From contig NC_133300.1 in NCBI RefSeq assembly GCF_005239225.2, forward strand, positions 16,273,875-16,337,874: DNA of 64,000 nucleotides, written 5' to 3'. A program made the position numbers and the translations under genes. Positions 3,040 to 64,000 of this stretch are shown one piece after another. This DNA comes from Populus alba (Eukaryota; Streptophyta; Magnoliopsida; Malpighiales; Salicaceae). The first letter of the stretch is position 1. The number at the start of each line of letters is the position of its first letter. The notes beneath the pieces are model-generated. The model was not told the origin of the DNA. It saw only the letters and a program-made list of their open reading frames with translations, and did not search any database.

Positions 3040-4497
3040 TTAAGATTCAACCCCTTCCTTACCCTCAGAGATTGACTCATCATCTTTCTCACAAGGTTCA
3101 AGAATGGGTTTTTCAATAACCTTACCACTACGAAGAGTGATGTCTGATTTAACTTGATCCATGTGTTGACTTCTGGAACTACTTGCATTTACATTGTATT
3201 TCTCCTTTGGATTTTGTTGTGGTTGAGATGGAAACTTACCGTTCTCTTGAAAACTGAGAGCAAATGTTAACTTTGCAAGAGTATCTTTAAAACCTGTCAT
3301 GCTTTGAGCAAGTTGAGTGTTGATTATCTCTTGTTTTTCAATTAATGAATGCAATGTTTCCTCAAGATTTATTCTAGAAGGTGGAGCATAAGGAGGTGCA
3401 TATCCATGAAAATTTTGGAAATTATGGTGTGCTTGAAACGATGGCTGTAAAGTTTGTGCATTATTGTTATCACTCTTCCAACTAAAATTTGGGTGATTTC
3501 TCCAACCAGGATTGTATGTTTGCGAGTATGGGTTATGATTGGGCCTTTGGAAACTGTTTAAAGCATGGGCTTGTTCATGGAGGCATTCCTTGAAAGAAGG
3601 CAAAGTTGGACAATTATTGGTTGCATGTTCATTTGTTTCACAGATTTGACACACAATGTCTTGAACAGATTTTAATTGACCACTCCTTTTCAATTCTAGT
3701 GCCTCGACTTTTCTAGCTAAAGATGTAGTGGATTGGAGGTCATGATCTTCCCTAAGGTTATACATACCTCCATTAGATGTATGAGGTTGAGTTTTACCCA
3801 GTGTCTCATAAGTGCCCGTAGTGTCCCAGTTTTGTGCATTTTCAGCTAGCAAGTCTAGGTACTCCATTGCTTCATCAGGGTCTTTATCTTCAAAAGTTCC
3901 ATTGCACATCAATTCCACCATTTGCCTATCTTTAGGTGTTAATCCTTTATAAAAATGTGAAACCAATCTCCATGTTTCAAAACCATGATGAGGGCAAGTA
4001 TTAATCAAGTCTAGATACCTATCGCAACATTGGTAAAATGTTTCTCCTGGTTTTTGAGTGAAAGTGATGATTTGTCTTTTGAAAGAGTTTGTTCTCTGAG
4101 ATGAAAAAAACTTCTTTAAAAATTGTTGTTGCATTTCATCCCAAGCACGAATGGATCCTGGTCTCAAATTTTGTAGCCATGTTTTAGCTTTATCTTTTAA
4201 AGAAAAAGGAAAAAGCTTTAATCTGATGGTGTTCATGCTACAATTTGAGTCATTATAAGTGTTACAAACTTCCTCAAATTCTCTCAAATGCAAGTATGGA
4301 TTTTCTAGATCTAAGCCATGAAAAGAAGGTAAAAGTTGAATAATGTCTGGCTTAAAATTAAAATGAGATGCATCAAGAGGAAAAAATAGACATGATCGTG
4401 CAATTGTTCTTGTTGGATTCATGTAGTCTCTAAGTGTTCTAACCCGATTATTCTCATTATTCTCATTATAAAGCGATTGATTATCCTCTTCGGCCAT
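3040..4497 (-). CDS. Ty3/gypsy Gag protein (485 aa)
   Basis: Gag forms the virus-like particle that packages retrotransposon RNA. The ORF is open for 485 codons. The Retrotrans_gag core runs over about residues 55-215 (KLFPFSLKDKAKTWL, WDEMQQQFLKKFF, GETFYQCCDRY). A CCHC zinc knuckle, CQICETNEHATNNC, lies at about residues 286-299, and the ITLRSGKVI segment common at the gag/protease border of this lineage is near the C-terminus. The ATG lies 165 bases after the tRNA-Asp primer site. The gag is uninterrupted while pol is deleted, so the element could only move with enzymes supplied by others. Confidence 0.85.
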   Translation of the reverse strand: MAEEDNQSLYNENNENNRVRTLRDYMNPTRTIARSCLFFPLDASHFNFKPDIIQLLPSFHGLDLENPYLHLREFEEVCNTYNDSNCSMNTIRLKLFPFSLKDKAKTWLQNLRPGSIRAWDEMQQQFLKKFFSSQRTNSFKRQIITFTQKPGETFYQCCDRYLDLINTCPHHGFETWRLVSHFYKGLTPKDRQMVELMCNGTFEDKDPDEAMEYLDLLAENAQNWDTTGTYETLGKTQPHTSNGGMYNLREDHDLQSTTSLARKVEALELKRSGQLKSVQDIVCQICETNEHATNNCPTLPSFKECLHEQAHALNSFQRPNHNPYSQTYNPGWRNHPNFSWKSDNNNAQTLQPSFQAHHNFQNFHGYAPPYAPPSRINLEETLHSLIEKQEIINTQLAQSMTGFKDTLAKLTFALSFQENGKFPSQPQQNPKEKYNVNASSSRSQHMDQVKSDITLRSGKVIEKPILEPCEKDDESISEGKEGVES

Positions 4498-4662: not shown

Positions 4663-4680
4663 TCCCCGACAACGGCGCCA
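4663..4680 (-). other. tRNA-Asp primer-binding site
   Basis: The minus strand reads TGGCGCCGTTGTCGGGGA, complementary to the 3' end of plant tRNA-Asp with one mismatch. It lies 7 bases inside the 3' end of the LTR (TGTCA at 4692-4688). Confidence 0.9.
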
Positions 4681-4687
4681 AAAAACT

Positions 4688-5010
4688 TGACACGACCAAA
4701 AGATTGATGTCTTCTCCCAAGAGCAGGAGTGTCGAAGTAATAAATAACCCGGCAAGACCGGGGTCGAACCACATAGAGGTTAATTGTATAAATTATAAAT
4801 AACAAGAAAACAACAACAACAACAACAACAACAATAACAATAATAGTAATAGTAATAGTAATAGTAATAGTAATATTAATAGTAGTAGTAGTAATAATAA
4901 TAATAATAAATAATAATACTCAGTACGTGGCGTTGTTATACCTGAGAATGATCTAAAAGATCGGGTCACAAGTTTCCAGCCTATATACTGATTTTATGAT
5001 AATAATAGTA

Positions 5011-5052
<42 letters not shown>

Positions 5053-6544
5053 GTGTTAGTAGTAGTAATAGTAATAACAATAATAATAATAAAAAGAAGA
5101 GGAGGAGGAATAAATTAATGAGAACTTTGAGATGGAAGATTAATGTAATGATTAAACAATGATAAAAAACAAATGTCAAGGTTAGAGGATCCACCAATGG
5201 TATTTCAAACAAGTATAGTATAAACTCTTATTACTCAATTTAGAAACCACACATGAAGGAGGTTCCAATCGGATGATTTGTCATTAATAAGCTCATTATA
5301 AATTATTAACATGATCATATTAATTATCTTAATTACGTAACACCAAACTTTTAAATATTATCAGGAATTCATGATATGAACTTATGCTAACAACAAATCT
5401 AGTTATTTTCATAGCCCAGGTGTAGGTAATACCATACTGTTGGGCTATGAGAGTGCCAAGCATTTGCTGTACCAAATGTTATACAACACAAATCTAGATT
5501 AACCATTTAACAAGCAAGGTATTAAGAATTAGTAAGATAAAAAAGATAAGACATGTTAATATTAAACATTAAGATCCATATTGAGTTTACACCATACTTG
5601 TTCTTACACCATTAGTGTAACCTTTTCACCTTGACATAATAAAAAATTAGCTAAACATAATGAAGAAGAGAAACATAAATAAACAAAACAAGAACATAAA
5701 TAAGATACAAGTTAACTAAGGAAAGGAAAGGAAATGAAAAGCATAAACAAGAAAATTAATGAAAGCAAAACTTAAGAATTACAAAAAATATAAAGAGAGA
5801 AATAAAGAGCATGAACTTGATCCGAACAATCAAGCCCCCAAATACATGGCAAATGCCTCCTTTTATAGGCCAAAATTCAGAATTATTGATTTGATGAATA
5901 ATTGTTGAGTGGGTGGCCAACTTTTGACTTGGTGAAAATCCTTATCTTCTTGTCTGAATAAAACAAAAATGCTACCATCCGAACTGGGTCCTCTAGAAAA
6001 CATGAAAGTTGTAGGAAATTGACTCAGATTTCCAGGAAAAAAACATGGAGATGATTTGGACTTCTAGAACTCCAGATATGGGCCAAACACTGAACACTGT
6101 TCGGGCTGTATGACAGATTCGGACTTCTCCATTGTTGCTATTATTTGGACTTGAAAACGGCCTTGTTAGATTTTTATGTTCACATGAAAGTTGTAGGCCT
6201 ATGTCTCACCAAGTTTGTGTAAATGTTTGAGGTCATTTGGACATCTAGAACTCGAGTTATGACCCAAACACCAAAGAGTGTTCCAGTTTGAACTACACCA
6301 ACATCTCTTTTCTAAGTTTCACCCTCTCTTTATCTTCACAAATTTCAGTAGTTGAATTCATCAATCAATCCTTTGATTTATGTGATAGGCCTGCATTTAA
6401 GATGAACATTTACCATATATTAGGGCATTTTATAGTATTAGACTTTTTATTATAAAACATGCTTTAGTTAAAGAGTTATTGATACTTTAAGTGCAAGATT
6501 ATGATATAAAACCTTGATAAATATGCACTTTTAAGTACTAATGA
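4688..6544 (-). repeat. 5' LTR of the Ty3 element (about 1.86 kb)
   Basis: This matches the solo LTR at 10706-12460 along its length, in reverse orientation. It ends in TGTCA at the primer site. The start reads TCATTAG where the solo LTR has TGATTAG. It contains ATT/ATTG-type triplet tracts (about 4808-5095), the conserved hairpin element (4918-4993), and an internal duplication of about 182 bp (near 6000-6105 and 6182-6285). Confidence 0.85.
4918..4993 (-). ncRNA. conserved hairpin element in Ty3 LTR (copy 1)
   Basis: In element sense it contains the blocks GGC-TGGAA-ACTTG and CAGGT-ATAACAAC-GCC around a small hairpin (GATC/GATC), closed by TCAGTA/TACTGA. It differs from the solo-LTR copy at one loop base and one outer-stem base. 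See the finding for the comparison with the caulimovirid leader. Function is unknown. Confidence 0.6.
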
Positions 6545-10705: not shown

Positions 10706-12124
10706 TGATTAGTACTTAAAAGTGCATGTTTATCAAGGTTTTATATCATCATTTTGCACTTGAAGTATCAATAACTCTTTAACTAAAGCATGTTTTATAA
10801 TAACAAGTTTGATACTATAAGATACCTTAATTTATGGTAAATGCTCATCTTATATGCAGGCCTATCACATAAATAAAAGGATTAATTGATGAGTTTAAGT
10901 ATTGAAAGTGAAAGGACAAAGAGATGGCCAAACTTAGAAAAGAGATGTCGGTGTAGTCCAAACCGGAACATTGCTCGGTAATTGGATCATATCTGGAGCT
11001 CTAGATCTCGGATTTAGGTCCATTTTATATGGATGGAAAGGTAAGACAAAGGCCTACAACTTTCATGAGGAGCCCAAGATTTAAAAAGGTCGTTTTGAAG
11101 TCCAAATTGAAGGAACAACGAAGATGTCCGAAGCTGTCCTGCAACCCAAACACTATTTAGTGTTCAACCCATATCTTGAGTTCTAGAAGTCCAAATGACC
11201 TCATCTTTTTTTTTTTTGTTGAAAAGCTGAGACAATTTCCTAGAACATTCCTGAGGATTCTGGGCAAATTATGATGTTAGCAATGACGTTTTGTTCAGAC
11301 AAGAAGATAAGGATTGTCACCAAGTCAAGATGTGGCCACCCACTCATCAATTAGTCAACAAATCAATAGTTCCAAATTTTGGCCTATAAAAGGAGGCACT
11401 TACCATGTATTGAGTCATCTTGGTGTTCAGATTAAGATCATGCTCTTGCTTTCTCTCTTTGTATTGCTTATGTTTTGCTTTCATTAATATCAAGTTTATG
11501 CACTTCATTTCCTTTCCTTTACTTAGTTAACTTCATTCTCATTTATGTTCTTATCTTGTTCATTTATGTTTCTTTCTTTCATTATGTTTAGCTAAGTTAA
11601 TTATGTCAAGGTGAAAAGGGTACACTAATGGTGTAAGAACAAGTATAATATAAACTTAACATGGACCTTAACGTTGGATACTAACATGTTTTATATTTGT
11701 TATCTTGTTCACTTTTAATACTTTGCTTGTTAAAGTGGTTAATCTAGAATTTATGTTGTATAACACTTGGTACAACAAATACTTGGCACTTTCATAGCCC
11801 ATACTGTATGGTTTTAACCGACACCTGAGCTATGAAAGGAACTTGATTTGTTGTTAACATAAGTTATAATCATGAATGCCTGCCAACATTACAAGTATTA
11901 GCTTTATTCGAATAAGATAACTAATGTAATAATGTTAACAATTTATAATCTGATTGAAACCTCCTTTATGTGTGGTTTCCAACTGAGTAATAAGAGTTTA
12001 TACTATACTTGTTTTTGAAGTACCATTAGTGGATCCTCTAACCTTGACATTTGTTTTTATCATTGTTTAATCCTTACGTTAATCTTTCATCTCAAAGTTC
12101 TCATTAATTTTCTTCATCTTCCCC

Positions 12125-12158
<34 letters not shown>

Positions 12159-12460
12159 TATTATTATTTATATTCTGTTTATATTATATAATATATATCT
12201 TTGATCTTTTCATAAACTCAGTATATAGGCTGGAAACTTGTGACCCGATCTTTTCGATCATTCTCAGGTATAACAACGCCACGTACTGAGTATTATAATA
12301 ATAATTATTGTTATTGTTATTGTTGTTATTGTTGTTGTTGTGTTGTTATTTATAATTTATACAATTAACCTCTTTGTGGTTCGACCCCGGTCTTGCTGGG
12401 TTATTTATTACTTCGACACTCCTGCACTTGGGAAAAGACATCAAGCTTTTGGCGTGTCAC
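10706..12460 (+). mobile_element. solo Ty3/gypsy LTR (1755 bp) with 5-bp target duplication
   Basis: It starts TGATTAG, ends GTGTCA, and is flanked by CCCTT at 10701-10705 and 12461-12465. The other RPOT copy has the uninterrupted site with a single CCCTT (42746-42750), which proves both borders. It is the same family as the LTR at 4688-6544. Loss of the internal part by LTR-LTR recombination is the usual explanation. Triplet tracts (ATT)n and (TTG)n flank the conserved hairpin at 12216-12291. Confidence 0.97.
12216..12291 (+). ncRNA. conserved hairpin element in Ty3 LTR (copy 2)
   Basis: The outer stem is ACTCAGTA (12216-12223) with TACTGAGT (12284-12291). Stem 2 is GGC (12228-12230) with GCC (12278-12280). 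The internal loop is TGGAA opposite ATAACAAC. Stem 3 is ACTTG (12236-12240) with CAGGT (12265-12269). The apical hairpin is GATC (12247-12250) with GATC (12256-12259). It lies about 170 bases before the LTR end. Conservation with the caulimovirid leader suggests a shared RNA-level function, which is not known. Confidence 0.65.
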
Positions 12461-47435: not shown

Positions 47436-47700
47436 TAGTTTTGATTAATTTTCATATTTAAAAAAAAAATTAGATTTATTTTTGTATTTTGTTTTCACTT
47501 AGAAAATATGTTTATGATCTCAATTTCATCTATAAGTTAAGCTAGTGTTGCTTGTATTTATGTTATGATCATCTAGTGTCTAACTTTAAATTTATAATTA
47601 TTTTGGACTCTTGAGTGATATCTTTAGAATCAATCATGAGCATAACATTATAGAGTTTATGACAACTAGGTTAAGTATAGTCAAATGTGCCTTGACATTA
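46307..47700. other. RPOT 3' flank and AT-rich intergenic stretch
   Basis: 46307-46680 is probably the 3' UTR and downstream flank. Beyond it there is no gene. A (TA)n microsatellite lies at about 47390-47434. Confidence 0.5.
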
Positions 47701-59128: not shown

Positions 59129-60660
59129 ATGAGTATATCTACAATTGAAGATAAACTCAAAAATGTTTGTAGTGATAATCCACTAGACAACAATATCTCT
59201 AAATATAGATTTAGAGCCCACATAGAATTAGTTGATAAAACAACTAAGATAAAGGGTTCCACAATGCAGTACACTGCACCTGATAGAGAAGAGATTTGGC
59301 CAAAACAAATTCAAGAATTATTAGACGCCGGTCTAATAGAACCTAGCAAAAGGTCCACATTTTAGCCCTGCTTCTTAGTCACACAACACTCAGACAGAAG
59401 CGTGGAAAAAAAAGGGGATGGTCATTAATTACAAAAAAAGGCTTAATGATCACACTATAGGTGATGGTTATCTATTACCTTAGAAAAGGATGAACTGTTA
59501 GATCAGATTCGTGGAAAGAAGCTATTCTCCTCTTTTGATTGCAAAAGTGGATTTTGGCAGGTGCTGTTGGATGACAGCTCACAGTCTTTAACTGCTTTCA
59601 CATGCCCACAAGGACACTTTCAGTGGAAAGTAATTGCACTTTCGGCTTAAAGCAGGCCCGTCCATATTTCAAAGACATATGGATGAGACCTTTTAAAGGA
59701 TTCTGAATCACTTTTGTAGGTCTACCGTAGATGATATTAATATGTGTTCAAAGCAATAATGATAAAGATCCACATACATATCAACAATGTGACCAAAGTA
59801 CTAGACAGATGTAAAAGAAATAGGAGTAATCTATCTTTACCAAAAGCCCAAATTATTTAAAAAGCATCCCTAACTTCGCACTCTCGATTAATAATCGTGA
59901 ACATAAAGGGACAATCAATCGCACTTCAATCAAATCACCATAGTAATCACTTAGGTGAATTTGATATTGAGTAATATAACTAGATAAGCGCTCAAACCAG
60001 TTACCAAAGTTTTTAGGCATATTATTATGTTTTCTACACTAAATTTCTGTCTCATAAAGAGGTGCGACAGATTGCTCAACCCTTGGCAGTCTCCGAGCAC
60101 AAACTCAACCTGAAAGACTCGTACATATGTATGGCAGTGGTCAAAAGAAGATACCAGACTATGTCGATAAATCAAAAAAGGCAATTAAACATCTTCCACT
60201 GTGCATCACCCAGGACGCAGATGAGCCTTTAATCATTTGAGACAGATTGCCCAGATAGTATTGGGGAGGAATCTCAAATCTCTCAGCCTAAAGAAGGACC
60301 AGAAATTAATAGTGGTTATGCAAGTGGGACTTTTAAACTCCCGCAGAACAAAATTATCCACAGTAATGAAAGGTTGTCTCAGCTTCTAGCCTACTATTAG
60401 AATAACCATCAAAACGGTACTCCAGTATATATTTCATTCAGTGAGATTTTAAAGCAAGAACAGATAATAAACATGTGTTTTTATTTTTCTGAATACTAAC
60501 ATTACAGGAGATCCTATAAACAAGGGGAGACTTGTCAGGGTGGCAACATCTGGTTGCAGTATCTTTTGACATAGAGTTTGAACACGTCGAAGGAATCAAA
60601 ACGAAATAGACGTGTTCGCGCTTCTCTCACGAGAGTTTATCAAAGAATATGTCCAGATCG
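59129..60660 (+). pseudogene. endogenous caulimovirid reverse transcriptase/RNase H, heavily decayed
   Basis: The first part encodes DREEIWPKQIQELLDAGLIE and a GMVINYK-like stretch, the start of a pararetroviral RT. Then FDCKSGFWQVLLDDS at about 59535-59580 carries the first palm aspartate in the form typical of Caulimoviridae, followed by TCPQGHFQW. A VDDI at 59727-59738 is the remnant of the YVDD box. Stops and frameshifts occur roughly every 100-200 bases, and RNase H sequence beyond 59760 is hardly recognisable. The left viral boundary is uncertain (between about 58700 and 59100). Coat protein and protease genes were not recognised. Confidence 0.75.
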
Positions 60661-60679
60661 GACATAGTAGAAGAGATCA

Positions 60680-62142
60680 ATGATCTCGGTACCAGAAGAT
60701 CTCATCGAACGAGAAAAAATTGATTCAGGAAAAGCAGACTCAAGCTTGAGCGCCTTACTGAGAAACGAGTGTAAGTTTATCCACAAACTTGAGAGCATGC
60801 CTCTCACAGCTGAAGGTCTTCTCGAAAGATTTTCTGAAAAGATGGCAGTTGCCAAGGAAGCTGGTCAGTCTTCACAGACTCCTTCCAGCCCAGAAGATTT
60901 GGTTGCAAAACCAAAAGTCCTTGATCAAGGATTACAAAAGATAGAGTCAGCTTTAAAGCTCTCTAACCCATATGCTGTGCCAGAAGCACATAAATGTTAT
61001 GTTATATTTTCTGGCCCTAATGCAGGTGTCTACAGAGAATGGTCAACCGTAGATCCAGCCCCTGGTGTCCGGTAAGCCCATATGCCTATCAAGGCTACAA
61101 AACATACGAGCTTGCTCGTAAAGCATTTTATGATTATTGTGTCAAGCACAATACACCCATCCAAAGTGTCCCTCGTTTGATTACACCAGCTGAAATCCTC
61201 CAGCCCAAAATATCAAAGGGTTCCAACCTTTGGCTGATAAAGCTAAAAATGCCCGCCTGTCCGGTCATACCCAGAACCCTGTCTAGGTTCCAAAAAGTTA
61301 GGGTCCAAAACCCAGATGATCATGAGTTCATTCCCATTGAAACTTTTGACCATTATTATACTCTTGCCGAGTCAACCTGTTCTGATGAACAAAACCACTT
61401 TTTTATAAGTGAAACCAAAGGATTCCGTTTGTATAACGTGACCATAGGAGCTGAACCTAAATTTGTTCAGACATTATATTATTGTGGTTTGTTAAATGCA
61501 GCATACCCCAGCTCAAATCTTAAGGAGATCAGTCTCCTTCCTCCAAAGGTGTTAACAGCGGTAAAGCATTATCGCCAAAAGGTTCTTCAGAGCCCTGAAC
61601 GGAGAGTTTATCTCTCTTTCAAAAGTTCCCTCCTAGACTGGGAAGAAACTGAAGATGAGACTGACAGCCTCAGAAACTATCCTGCATACCATTACATAAA
61701 AATGGGACTACTCAGGAAACAAATTGATGTACTTCCTTGTACAGAAACTAAAAATATGACTCCCAACCTGCACGAAGCTTTGCCAGAATTGAGAGCCCAA
61801 AGTTTAGGACATGTCCTAAAGAAGATCAGGACTTCCCTATATACTGACTCTAAGGTCAGAATAAACTATCAAAGTGACCACGTCTTAATGGCCACAGATA
61901 GTCTCCAAATTATCAGTCCAGAAGATTGCCAAAGAATAGAGCGGTTCGAGAAACAGTTCTACTGCAACGATCTAGCCATTTCAGTGGCTACAAAAAGAAA
62001 ATTTTGCTCCTACGCCAGCGAGGACCACAAATGTGACTTCTGTCCAGAAGACGACAAGATGGAGACATGCTCCTCCAACAGTGGCGAAAACTCAGAAGAT
62101 TCCTGCCAACCAGGAAAGAGAAGACAAGCCGACGACATGTAG
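60680..62142 (+). pseudogene. caulimovirid transactivator/viroplasmin (ORF VI type), one frameshift
   Basis: This protein family forms the viral inclusion bodies and lets host ribosomes translate the polycistronic viral RNA. An N-terminal segment (60680-61075) and a long C-terminal segment (to 62142) are in different frames. Together they span about 485 codons. The conserved RNase H1-like viroplasmin motif straddles the break: KCYVIFSGPNAGVY at about 60995-61035 and GYKTYELARKAFYDY at about 61093-61137. A CX2C-type Cys/His cluster (HKCDFCPEDD) and an acidic, Ser-rich tail lie near the C-terminus. The break lies close to 61072. Apart from it the frame is open over 1.4 kb, in contrast to the decayed RT upstream. 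Confidence 0.85.
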
Positions 62143-62524
62143 TTAGTTGGCTACTGTTCAGTGGACCTCACCACTTCAAAAAGGAACTATGTAGTTCTTT
62201 TTACTGTTTATGTTTTCGGCTATTTAAGCCATGCACCATGTATTTAGAACTTCAGAACAAAACTGAAGCACCCACCCTGTTTGTAAACCTTTCCAATCTT
62301 GTAACAAAGTTTTCAATTCAATAAAAGTAATCCTTAGCAGGATTAAAAGTTTTAATATATCTACTTTTGTAGATAATCTTTAAAGTTCGCAAGAACTTCA
62401 AACGGTCTACCTGCATTCTGTAAGTAGCCTACTTCTTAAGTCGCCTGAATAGCGTCTGAATAGCACAAGTAAGTCCCGATGAAGAGTGAAGGAAGGGCAG
62501 CAGTGTTGACGTTGGCGCCGAATA
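62143..62524 (+). promoter_or_regulatory. caulimovirid intergenic region: promoter and poly(A) signal
   Basis: A TATA-like CTATTTAAG at 62220-62228 and an AATAAA at 62320-62325 lie about 95 bases apart. That order fits the 35S-type promoter whose transcript start lies just upstream of the poly(A) signal, giving a terminally redundant genomic RNA. The rest is leader sequence before the 126-codon ORF. Confidence 0.6.
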
Positions 62525-62905
62525 ATGGCGAAAGTACAAGGGCAGAGTCTCCAAAAGACCAATAGAAGATATCCAGGTATGGAAAATATAATTGATGAAA
62601 TTATTACTCGTTTTGAGTATTTAGATTTAAATCATGTTTCTGTTGTCAGAACATTCATAGATAAACTCCAAGAAAGAATAGAATATCATGAATCTAGGAT
62701 TCCTGATGAAATAGATGATGATTGGTTTAACCAACCTGCAAATATACCATTAAGTTATAAACTTAAATTCCTTAGAAGAATTAAAAAGAATTTATTAAAA
62801 ATTCTAAGAGAAGCAGAAGATGATTCCCAGAATCCAGAAGCTGTTGGAAGCAGTGATATTGATACTATCAGTGAAAGTGATAGTTATAATCCAGACAACC
62901 TCTAG
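62525..62905 (+). CDS. unassigned 126-codon ORF between caulimovirid promoter and primer site
   Basis: Intact small ORF in what should be the 5' leader of the viral genomic RNA. It has a basic N-terminus (MAKVQGQSLQKTNRR), a charged helical middle with coiled-coil potential (about residues 20-60), a Lys-rich stretch near residue 90 and an acidic Asp/Ser tail ending DNL. I recognise no family. Caulimovirid leaders usually hold only very short ORFs, although soymovirus-like genomes have small ORFs around the primer site. It is uninterrupted, like the flanking movement-protein ORF. Confidence 0.6.
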   Translation: MAKVQGQSLQKTNRRYPGMENIIDEIITRFEYLDLNHVSVVRTFIDKLQERIEYHESRIPDEIDDDWFNQPANIPLSYKLKFLRRIKKNLLKILREAEDDSQNPEAVGSSDIDTISESDSYNPDNL

Positions 62906-62907
62906 GT

Positions 62908-62981
62908 TGTTGTATATCGGCTGGAAACCTGTACATTGAACCTTGGTTCTAACCTCAGGTATAACAATGCCACGTACAACA
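62908..62981 (+). ncRNA. conserved hairpin element in caulimovirid leader
   Basis: The outer stem is TGTTGTA (62908-62914) with TACAACA (62975-62981). Stem 2 is GGC (62919-62921) with GCC (62969-62971). The internal loop is TGGAA opposite ATAACAAT. Stem 3 is ACCTG (62927-62931) with CAGGT (62956-62960). The apical hairpin is GAAC (62938-62941) with GTTC (62946-62949). Loop lengths equal those of the Ty3 LTR copies. It ends 71 bases before the primer site. Confidence 0.65.
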
Positions 62982-63052
62982 TGTAGTTGTATAATAGAAG
63001 ATAGGTTGATCTTAACCTGTATTATAATTCCGCAAAGGGTTTCGATCTCAAA

Positions 63053-63065
63053 TGGTATCAGAGCC
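63053..63065 (+). other. caulimovirid minus-strand primer-binding site (tRNA-iMet)
   Basis: TGGTATCAGAGCC is the conserved primer site that marks the conventional start of caulimovirid genomes. It lies just before the movement-protein ORF, as expected. Confidence 0.93.
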
Positions 63066-63085: not shown

Positions 63086-64000
63086 ATGTTTACTCGTCTT
63101 TGCCGAGAAACTAACATTGCAGAAATGAGTTCTCAAACTCAACAAGAAGAAGATTCAGACTTCCATCAAGAAGTTTTTGAAGCAGAAGGTATCTTTGCTC
63201 AAGATGTCACGATAGACAGTAATGTCTTAGACCAGGTAAGTAAAACAGACTTATCTTTAAATTCAGAAGATGTATTTAATTCACTAGGTACAATTGCTAG
63301 TATACGCAATAAATTGTTTAAGCGTAAAAATCATATTATTACCTGTGTAGGTACTAGAGAATATCCTATAGATATAAAAGATACTCGTGGTAGTACAGAA
63401 ATCCCTCTAGTTTTAGAGCAGGAAATATCTCAGAAACTTTCAAAGTTGCCAGCTGAGATACGAAAAACTATTTCTTACATACACGTAGGAAGTATAAAAG
63501 TTATGATGAAATCTACTTTTAGAGTAGGTATCAACAGTCCTGTCAAGATGGCTATTCTAGACAGACGTATGAACAACCCCAAAGATGCTATCTTTGGTGC
63601 TGTACAAGGAAATTTAGCTTATGGTAAGCTAATATTTACTTGTAACCCTAAAATAGGTGTCCCTCTTAAAACAGAGAACATAAATTCTATAATATGTTTA
63701 GCTCATGAATTTGAGAGAACAAACTTAATGCAGAGTGGTGATATGCCTCTCAGTATTACGTATAAGATTTGTTATTCCTTAACAAACAGTCATCATTCAA
63801 TGATGTTTAAAAATAAAGATCCCATCAGTATTGAAGGTATCTTTAAAGAATTTGGACAAATATCCAGAATACCGTTTCAAAAGGTCGAACCTCTTGAGTC
63901 AGTATGGGCCATGGACTTAAGTCCTAAACCCTTCTTAGGTGCCCAACCTAAGTTACAAATTATGGGAACTCCGAATTCACAGTTTGGGTTAAGAAACAAC
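63086..64000 (+). CDS. caulimovirid movement protein, 5' part (runs off the right edge)
   Basis: The frame is open from an ATG at 63086 (a second in-frame ATG at 63125 may be the real start) to the end of the window, 305 codons. The central part matches the 30K-superfamily movement proteins of Caulimoviridae, which line plasmodesmata with tubules for cell-to-cell spread: ILDRRMNNPKDAIFGAVQGN at about residues 170-190, followed by LAYGKLIFTC. The N-terminus is acidic and Gln/Glu-rich. There is no stop or frameshift in the visible part. It should be followed by coat protein beyond the window. Confidence 0.88.
   Translation, partial: MFTRLCRETNIAEMSSQTQQEEDSDFHQEVFEAEGIFAQDVTIDSNVLDQVSKTDLSLNSEDVFNSLGTIASIRNKLFKRKNHIITCVGTREYPIDIKDTRGSTEIPLVLEQEISQKLSKLPAEIRKTISYIHVGSIKVMMKSTFRVGINSPVKMAILDRRMNNPKDAIFGAVQGNLAYGKLIFTCNPKIGVPLKTENINSIICLAHEFERTNLMQSGDMPLSITYKICYSLTNSHHSMMFKNKDPISIEGIFKEFGQISRIPFQKVEPLESVWAMDLSPKPFLGAQPKLQIMGTPNSQFGLRNN

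Follow-up and report, generated by a model that had tools for sequence, protein, structure and literature searches.

A hairpin with near-identical internal loops common to a caulimovirid leader and retrotransposon LTRs in Populus alba

The window analysed here, a stretch of 64,000 nucleotides of the Populus alba genome, contains two kinds of reverse-transcribing element that carry the same hairpin (Table 1). At one end lies a caulimovirid locus with a leader ORF, a primer binding site and the start of a movement-protein/polyprotein ORF. Its label draws on the movement protein, on the primer site (TGGTATCAGAGC), which we take to be of the tRNA-Met type, and on a presumed reverse-transcriptase motif at 59534. 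At the other end lie a solo LTR and a gag-bearing retrotransposon, whose primer site is presumably of the tRNA-Asp type found in Athila/Tat-like elements. The Ty3/Athila-like label is putative, as it draws on the gag match and this presumed primer-site type. The LTRs of one pair (L010/L011) are about 930 nt long and 97% identical. In the original prediction the hairpin precedes the primer site in either element, and this is borne out for the virus and the 5′ LTR at the distances given in the table. For the LTR, we assume that the hairpin lies downstream of the transcription start.

Table 1. Features of the window; bit scores are those of hairpin model R1, which was made from the viral copy and four LTR copies, with all three scored window copies inside the model
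Feature	Position	Strand	Remarks
Retrotransposon gag ORF	3040..4497	-	PF03732, E 5e-19
Retrotransposon primer binding site (TGGCGCCG...)	4663..4680	-	237 nt 3′ of hairpin
Hairpin in retrotransposon 5′ LTR	4918..4993	-	R1 104.2 bits
Hairpin in solo LTR	12216..12291	+	outer stem 12216-12223 with 12284-12291; R1 105.8 bits
Leader ORF, 126 aa	62525..62905	+	TAG ends 2 nt before hairpin
Hairpin in caulimovirid leader	62908..62981	+	outer stem 62908-62914 with 62975-62981; R1 90.1 bits
Viral conserved block 1 (TAT-N, GGC, TGGAAA, CYTG)	62915..62931	+	
Viral conserved block 2 (CAGG, TATAACAAY, GCC, ACG)	62956..62974	+	
Second, unrelated hairpin (TATAATA...AGGTT/AACCT...TATTATA)	62990..63026	+	between element and primer site
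Viral primer binding site (TGGTATCAGAGC)	63053..63064	+	71 nt 3′ of hairpin
Viral movement-protein/polyprotein ORF start	63086..64000	+	PF01107, E 6.1e-40; runs off window

In the viral locus, inspection by eye suggests a TATA box at 62221 and a poly(A) signal at 62320, approximately 590-690 nt upstream of the hairpin, which is therefore probably within the leader. The polyprotein ORF has candidate start ATGs at 63086 and 63125, and three further AUGs (62967, 62981 and 63052) lie between the end of the leader ORF and the polyprotein AUG. The sole relative found for the leader ORF is the Populus tomentosa protein P0001, which fuses it to the polyprotein start and, as judged by eye, leaves out the hairpin along with most of the primer site. 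This gap could be either a predicted intron or a deletion, and if it is an intron, the hairpin would mark unspliced viral RNA. The frame of the leader ORF is also open past its TAG and through the hairpin (62906-62986, VVVYRLETC...NNATYNM), making read-through conceivable, whereas the LTR has no such ORF start. A second viral copy, C17:16341321, lies 4.5 kb behind the window copy and was rejected as an independent case because it is a 410-bp piece of the same locus with 100% identity. It spans L087 2251-2660, corresponding to 62648-63057 of the window, and breaks off no more than five letters into the primer site. The fragment is joined upstream to a stretch that looks protease-coding by eye, and L087 reads, from its sequence, as a viral locus that has been rearranged, the breakpoint lying at the primer site. 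Upstream of the leader and in the same orientation, 59140-62142 (+) holds what appears by eye to be a decayed reverse-transcriptase stretch followed by ORFs at 60680-61075 and 61039-62142, neither of which has a Pfam match; together they may represent a viral insertion in tandem or in circularly permuted form. The leader further contains TGGCGCCG, the first 8 letters of the retrotransposon primer site, at 62513-62520. This is its only plus-strand occurrence in the window, the only minus-strand one being the retrotransposon site at 4680, and it may be due to chance.

The original prediction had described the same ordered blocks in all three hairpins, and both direct reading and a pattern search located them at these positions. 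A two-block core pattern has three matches in the window, exactly the three hairpins, and none in 100 dinucleotide shuffles of the window. Beyond the three copies, model R1 returns a single match in the window (47587-47658), which is at chance level (E 1.6). The observation of three copies of one hairpin is real and unusual.

Between the outer stems, the virus and the window solo LTR can be compared without gaps over 60 nt of equal length. The blocks, comprising the first 18 and last 21 positions, are identical at 36 of 39 positions, whereas the apical part (the middle 21 positions) agrees at 6 of 21. Two LTR copies elsewhere in the genome (L005 and L006, with TATC and CCTG) come closer, matching the viral blocks by eye at 38 of 39. 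The original prediction had named a recent copy from an LTR, with high identity outside the blocks, as one finding that would speak against it. Since apical identity is at background, the viral hairpin is not a recent plain copy of the LTR, and neutral copying would not give such a contrast between blocks and apical part within the same 60 nt. Virus and LTR are nearly the same in their two internal loops and in the short helices that separate these, and they differ in the sequence of the apical arm. The claim that internal-loop lengths are identical stands for the conserved internal loops and fails for the apical part, which, as read from the folds, has a 6x6 loop and a 4-nt end loop in the virus and a 6x5 loop and a 5-nt end loop in the window LTRs. 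Among the genome matches listed, many LTR copies also have an apical arm whose length is off by one base.

The near-fixed blocks could in principle be a short coding stretch, as the frame VYRLETC...LRYNNATY is present in both elements. Consistent with this, the three block differences from the window solo LTR are synonymous in the VYRLETC frame, which in the virus continues the leader-ORF frame behind the TAG. However, the LTR frame lacks an ATG and has simple repeats upstream, the residues encoded by the arms that separate the blocks are not the same, and each of the three variable letters is also polymorphic within the LTR family. We therefore consider a coding role extremely improbable.

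The outer stem has 7 Watson-Crick pairs in the viral hairpin and 8 in that of the solo LTR, which are equalled with the same spacing at 21 and 5 of 63,880 places in the window, respectively. Between virus and LTR, four of these pairs differ on both sides with pairing kept, in what amounts to one independent comparison. When the partners are slid by 1-3 columns, paired cells fall from 97.6% to 27-40%. Of 500 shuffles of five sequences, four of which belong to one LTR family, 14 matched the covariation score, 15 the paired percentage and 5 the count of two-sided pairs. These figures come from only two independent lineages, the virus and one LTR family. The proposed compensatory changes hold for the outer stem, with its four two-sided pairs, and are limited to the comparison of the virus with one LTR family. 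The stem-3 difference cited in their favour, T-G in the LTRs and C-G in the virus, turned out to be a polymorphism within the LTR family: where the 5′ block is intact (39 of 59 distinct LTR copies), 35 copies have C and four have T, both window LTRs being among those with T.

The same outer pairing bears on whether the element acts as DNA, with the blocks as transcription-factor sites and the hairpin as a by-product. The complement of GCCACGTA is TACGTGGC, which we take to be ABRE-like, TATATA resembles a TATA box, and the element may sit at the LTR promoter, depending on where the LTR start site lies. A list of such sites nevertheless leaves 7-8 bp of outer pairing with four two-sided changes unexplained. 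In addition, with a likely TATA box and poly(A) signal upstream, the viral hairpin is probably part of the leader, and we regard the DNA reading as very unlikely.

Variation inside the LTR family gives a different picture of the outer stem. The 59 distinct LTR copies form a set that includes both window LTRs and many copies chosen as variants, and 20 of them keep all 8 outer pairs, the rest having unpaired or shifted positions. Seventeen of the fully paired copies have the commonest form, one has a G-U pair and two are apparently compensated (L068, A-U to G-C, and L043, C-G to A-U). Among 19 LTR copies picked for a changed 3′ letter, four of them by an indel, a matching opposite change is found in one (L068). 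Judged from these sequences, outer-stem variation in the family looks like mostly uncompensated decay. In an alignment of the 59 LTR stretches, which were chosen via the hairpin element itself, two of the four 20-nt segments covering the hairpin are the most conserved of the LTR (0.97 and 0.98), and the remaining two (0.92 and 0.91) are equalled by segments elsewhere in the LTR.

Minimum-energy folds of the three 80-nt stretches share one architecture. From the outside inwards, the outer stem is followed by a small internal loop, GGC/GCC, a two-base bulge (AY) and UG/CA, and then by a GAA versus AUAA internal loop, ACYUG/CAGGU, a variable loop and the apical stem. The pairing is longer than first claimed, since UG/CA adjoins GGC/GCC and an A-U pair adjoins CYUG/CAGG. 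The GAA/UAA loop may resemble the UAA/GAN motif. Compared with shuffles, the hairpin fold has a z of -3.9 in the solo LTR (0 of 200 as good), -2.6 in the 5′ LTR (2 of 200) and -1.8 in the virus (11 of 200). When the 841-nt viral leader is folded as a whole, the hairpin is reduced to its apical stem and the inner CCUG/CAGG helix. In both the minimum-energy and the centroid fold, the outer stem and GGC/GCC give way to other pairing (62890-62995), with CAACC, immediately upstream, taking up the 5′ arm of the outer stem and GTTGTA, immediately downstream, its 3′ arm. This predicted refolding counts against the hairpin or hints at a possible switch between two folds. Apart from the whole-leader fold, the hairpin structure is supported.

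Across the 416-Mb genome, a strict core pattern is found at 897 places (457 forward, 440 reverse), and its reversed control at none on either strand; the approximately 100 of the 897 that were listed, from one contig, are by eye all of the LTR type. Three further patterns that exclude the main LTR type were applied. The first gave 14 matches, consisting of 12 LTR variants and two viral copies. The second gave 78, against 22 in the reversed control; of the 30 loci that head its list, 20 fit the hairpin model (66.7-104.6 bits) and 10 have no model match at E up to 1, and the other 48 matches were judged by eye from the matched text. The third gave 27 (19 LTR, two viral and six chance), against two in the control. 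The six chance matches of the third pattern (L067, L071, L073, L076, L077 and L086) were rejected as element copies, and L047, which has one block by chance, has no model match. No third or intermediate element type appeared among the pattern matches examined in this genome, so the covariation stands on one independent comparison. The original prediction had held that it would be undermined if other elements yielded no more copies whose stems covary, and within this genome that is partly what we see, no third type having appeared among these matches.

Searches of other collections gave negative results. In a viral contig collection, the core pattern had four matches, all rejected because they lie inside ORFs of at least 100 aa and lack the CYTG/CAGG helix. 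There, a movement-protein piece and a back-translated reverse-transcriptase motif each had no match, 60 stretches matched a reverse-transcriptase piece by pattern with none confirmed, and no caulimovirid relative was found. Three core matches in prokaryote contigs were read as chance, and there were no matches to a spurious reading frame that crosses the LTR hairpin. In searches of the open-licence literature, no paper was found that contains five sequence strings of the element, and the titles and abstract openings listed did not show a sequence-fixed non-coding RNA part common to caulimovirids and Ty3 elements.

Given the near-fixed loops, we considered a small self-cleaving ribozyme of an undescribed class, with the internal loops as catalytic core and the stems free, which would cleave the leader and yield RNA in monomeric or circular form in the manner of the hammerheads in retrozyme LTRs. 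Small ribozymes combine small size, fixed loops and free stems, an anatomy that the hairpin shares through its near-fixed loops and free outer and apical stems. To our knowledge, Rfam holds the known small ribozymes. The Rfam search that the original prediction had proposed gave no match for the hairpin, and no ribozyme family appeared either when the viral and the solo-LTR stretch were scanned at E values as high as 10 or when the 5′ LTR was scanned at gathering scores. Retrozymes, as described in PMC4918200 and PMC9695139, are non-autonomous elements with hammerhead ribozymes in their LTRs, and they provide a precedent for a small structured RNA with a fixed core and free stems in an LTR. 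They differ in that the hairpin here matches neither a hammerhead nor another Rfam ribozyme and stands beside gag or movement-protein ORFs. Moreover, a cut in the leader would cost an autonomous element its own 5′ end, and we judge the ribozyme reading quite unlikely.

A second possibility is ribosome shunting, in which the leader ORF would end before the hairpin as at a pararetrovirus take-off site, with the LTR copy acting likewise. As in the shunt hairpins of CaMV and RTBV, the viral ORF ends just before a hairpin that lies upstream of the primer site, and three AUGs precede the polyprotein AUG. We know of no requirement for a fixed loop sequence in shunting, and yet the loop sequence is kept here. 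Downstream of the hairpin, where a shunt landing site would be U/A-rich and unstructured, lies the second hairpin at 62990-63026, both helices of which form in the local fold and the inner one alone in the whole-leader fold. The LTR counterpart has no preceding AUG in the solo LTR over 11990-12460 or in the 5′ LTR from 5240 to the hairpin, AUGs being present further upstream, so that shunting would not explain the kept LTR loops. According to PMC5902531, the shunt arrangement is found in all but one of the examined members of six genera and is predicted in others. The ORFs given there for RTBV and RTSV have 7 and 6 codons with spacings of 7 and 8 nt, whereas the ORF here has 126 codons and a spacing of 2 nt. 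Shunting is thus unlikely, distinctly so, as a role common to virus and LTR, and possible for the virus alone.

The location upstream of the primer site in genomic RNA would also suit a packaging or dimerisation signal, putatively read by the elements' own Gag/CP proteins, and such signals in LTR elements and pararetroviruses share this location. A packaging signal for pregenomic RNA has been reported in the CaMV leader, although the CaMV packaging region is not replaceable by that of RTBV (both from PMC5902531). Coat proteins of different elements would need to retain one RNA specificity, and loops that are nearly letter-identical in two element types would be unexpected if the signal were element-specific. 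As for dimerisation, the end loops, read from the folds as CTTG and as TTTTC or TTTTA, include none that is self-complementary. This reading is in our view unlikely.

Our comparison supports a structured RNA element that a caulimovirid leader shares with the LTRs of a gag-bearing retrotransposon, and a shared hairpin with near-identical loops and rewritten stems points to a working RNA part, as far as sequence can tell. What is observed is that the leaders of two element types contain a part that pairs and whose sequence is nearly fixed. Our preferred explanation, held at somewhat less than an even chance, is a cis-acting structured RNA module of approximately 75 nt in both leaders, exchanged once, with its loops kept, and probably binding a common putative factor. 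From the constraint on the loops we infer that the loops and short helices would form the recognised surface and the stems a scaffold. The module would have passed once between retrotransposon and virus, in either direction, by template switching during reverse transcription or by recombination, and would then have diverged wherever function allowed. Still more tentatively, its putative role could be to bind one factor met by both RNAs that steers unspliced genomic RNA, either in nuclear export or in deciding whether it is translated or packaged, ahead of the onset of reverse transcription further downstream. Since it is hard for two coat proteins to share an RNA specificity, this putative factor would more probably be one host protein than two different coat/Gag proteins. 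Bolder, and to us rather unlikely, is a new functional RNA class, such as a putative self-cleaving ribozyme or export element, moving as a module between Ty3-type retrotransposons and pararetroviruses; if true, this genome would carry the core of such an RNA at 897 places. Judged by their polymerases, caulimovirids and Ty3 elements are distantly related. If the hairpin is kept in other plants, it would offer a handle on the recognition of genomic RNA in plant retroelements and an example of a virus and a retrotransposon exchanging an RNA module.

Apart from the hairpin, the Rfam family MIR2912 matches the window at 6063-6218 (+) and 11032-11187 (-), in opposite orientation and at 77 and 107.9 bits. 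Near these matches, 6363-6542 and 10706-10887 both resemble L088 1-182, and the MIR2912 'miRNA' family may therefore be part of a repeat.
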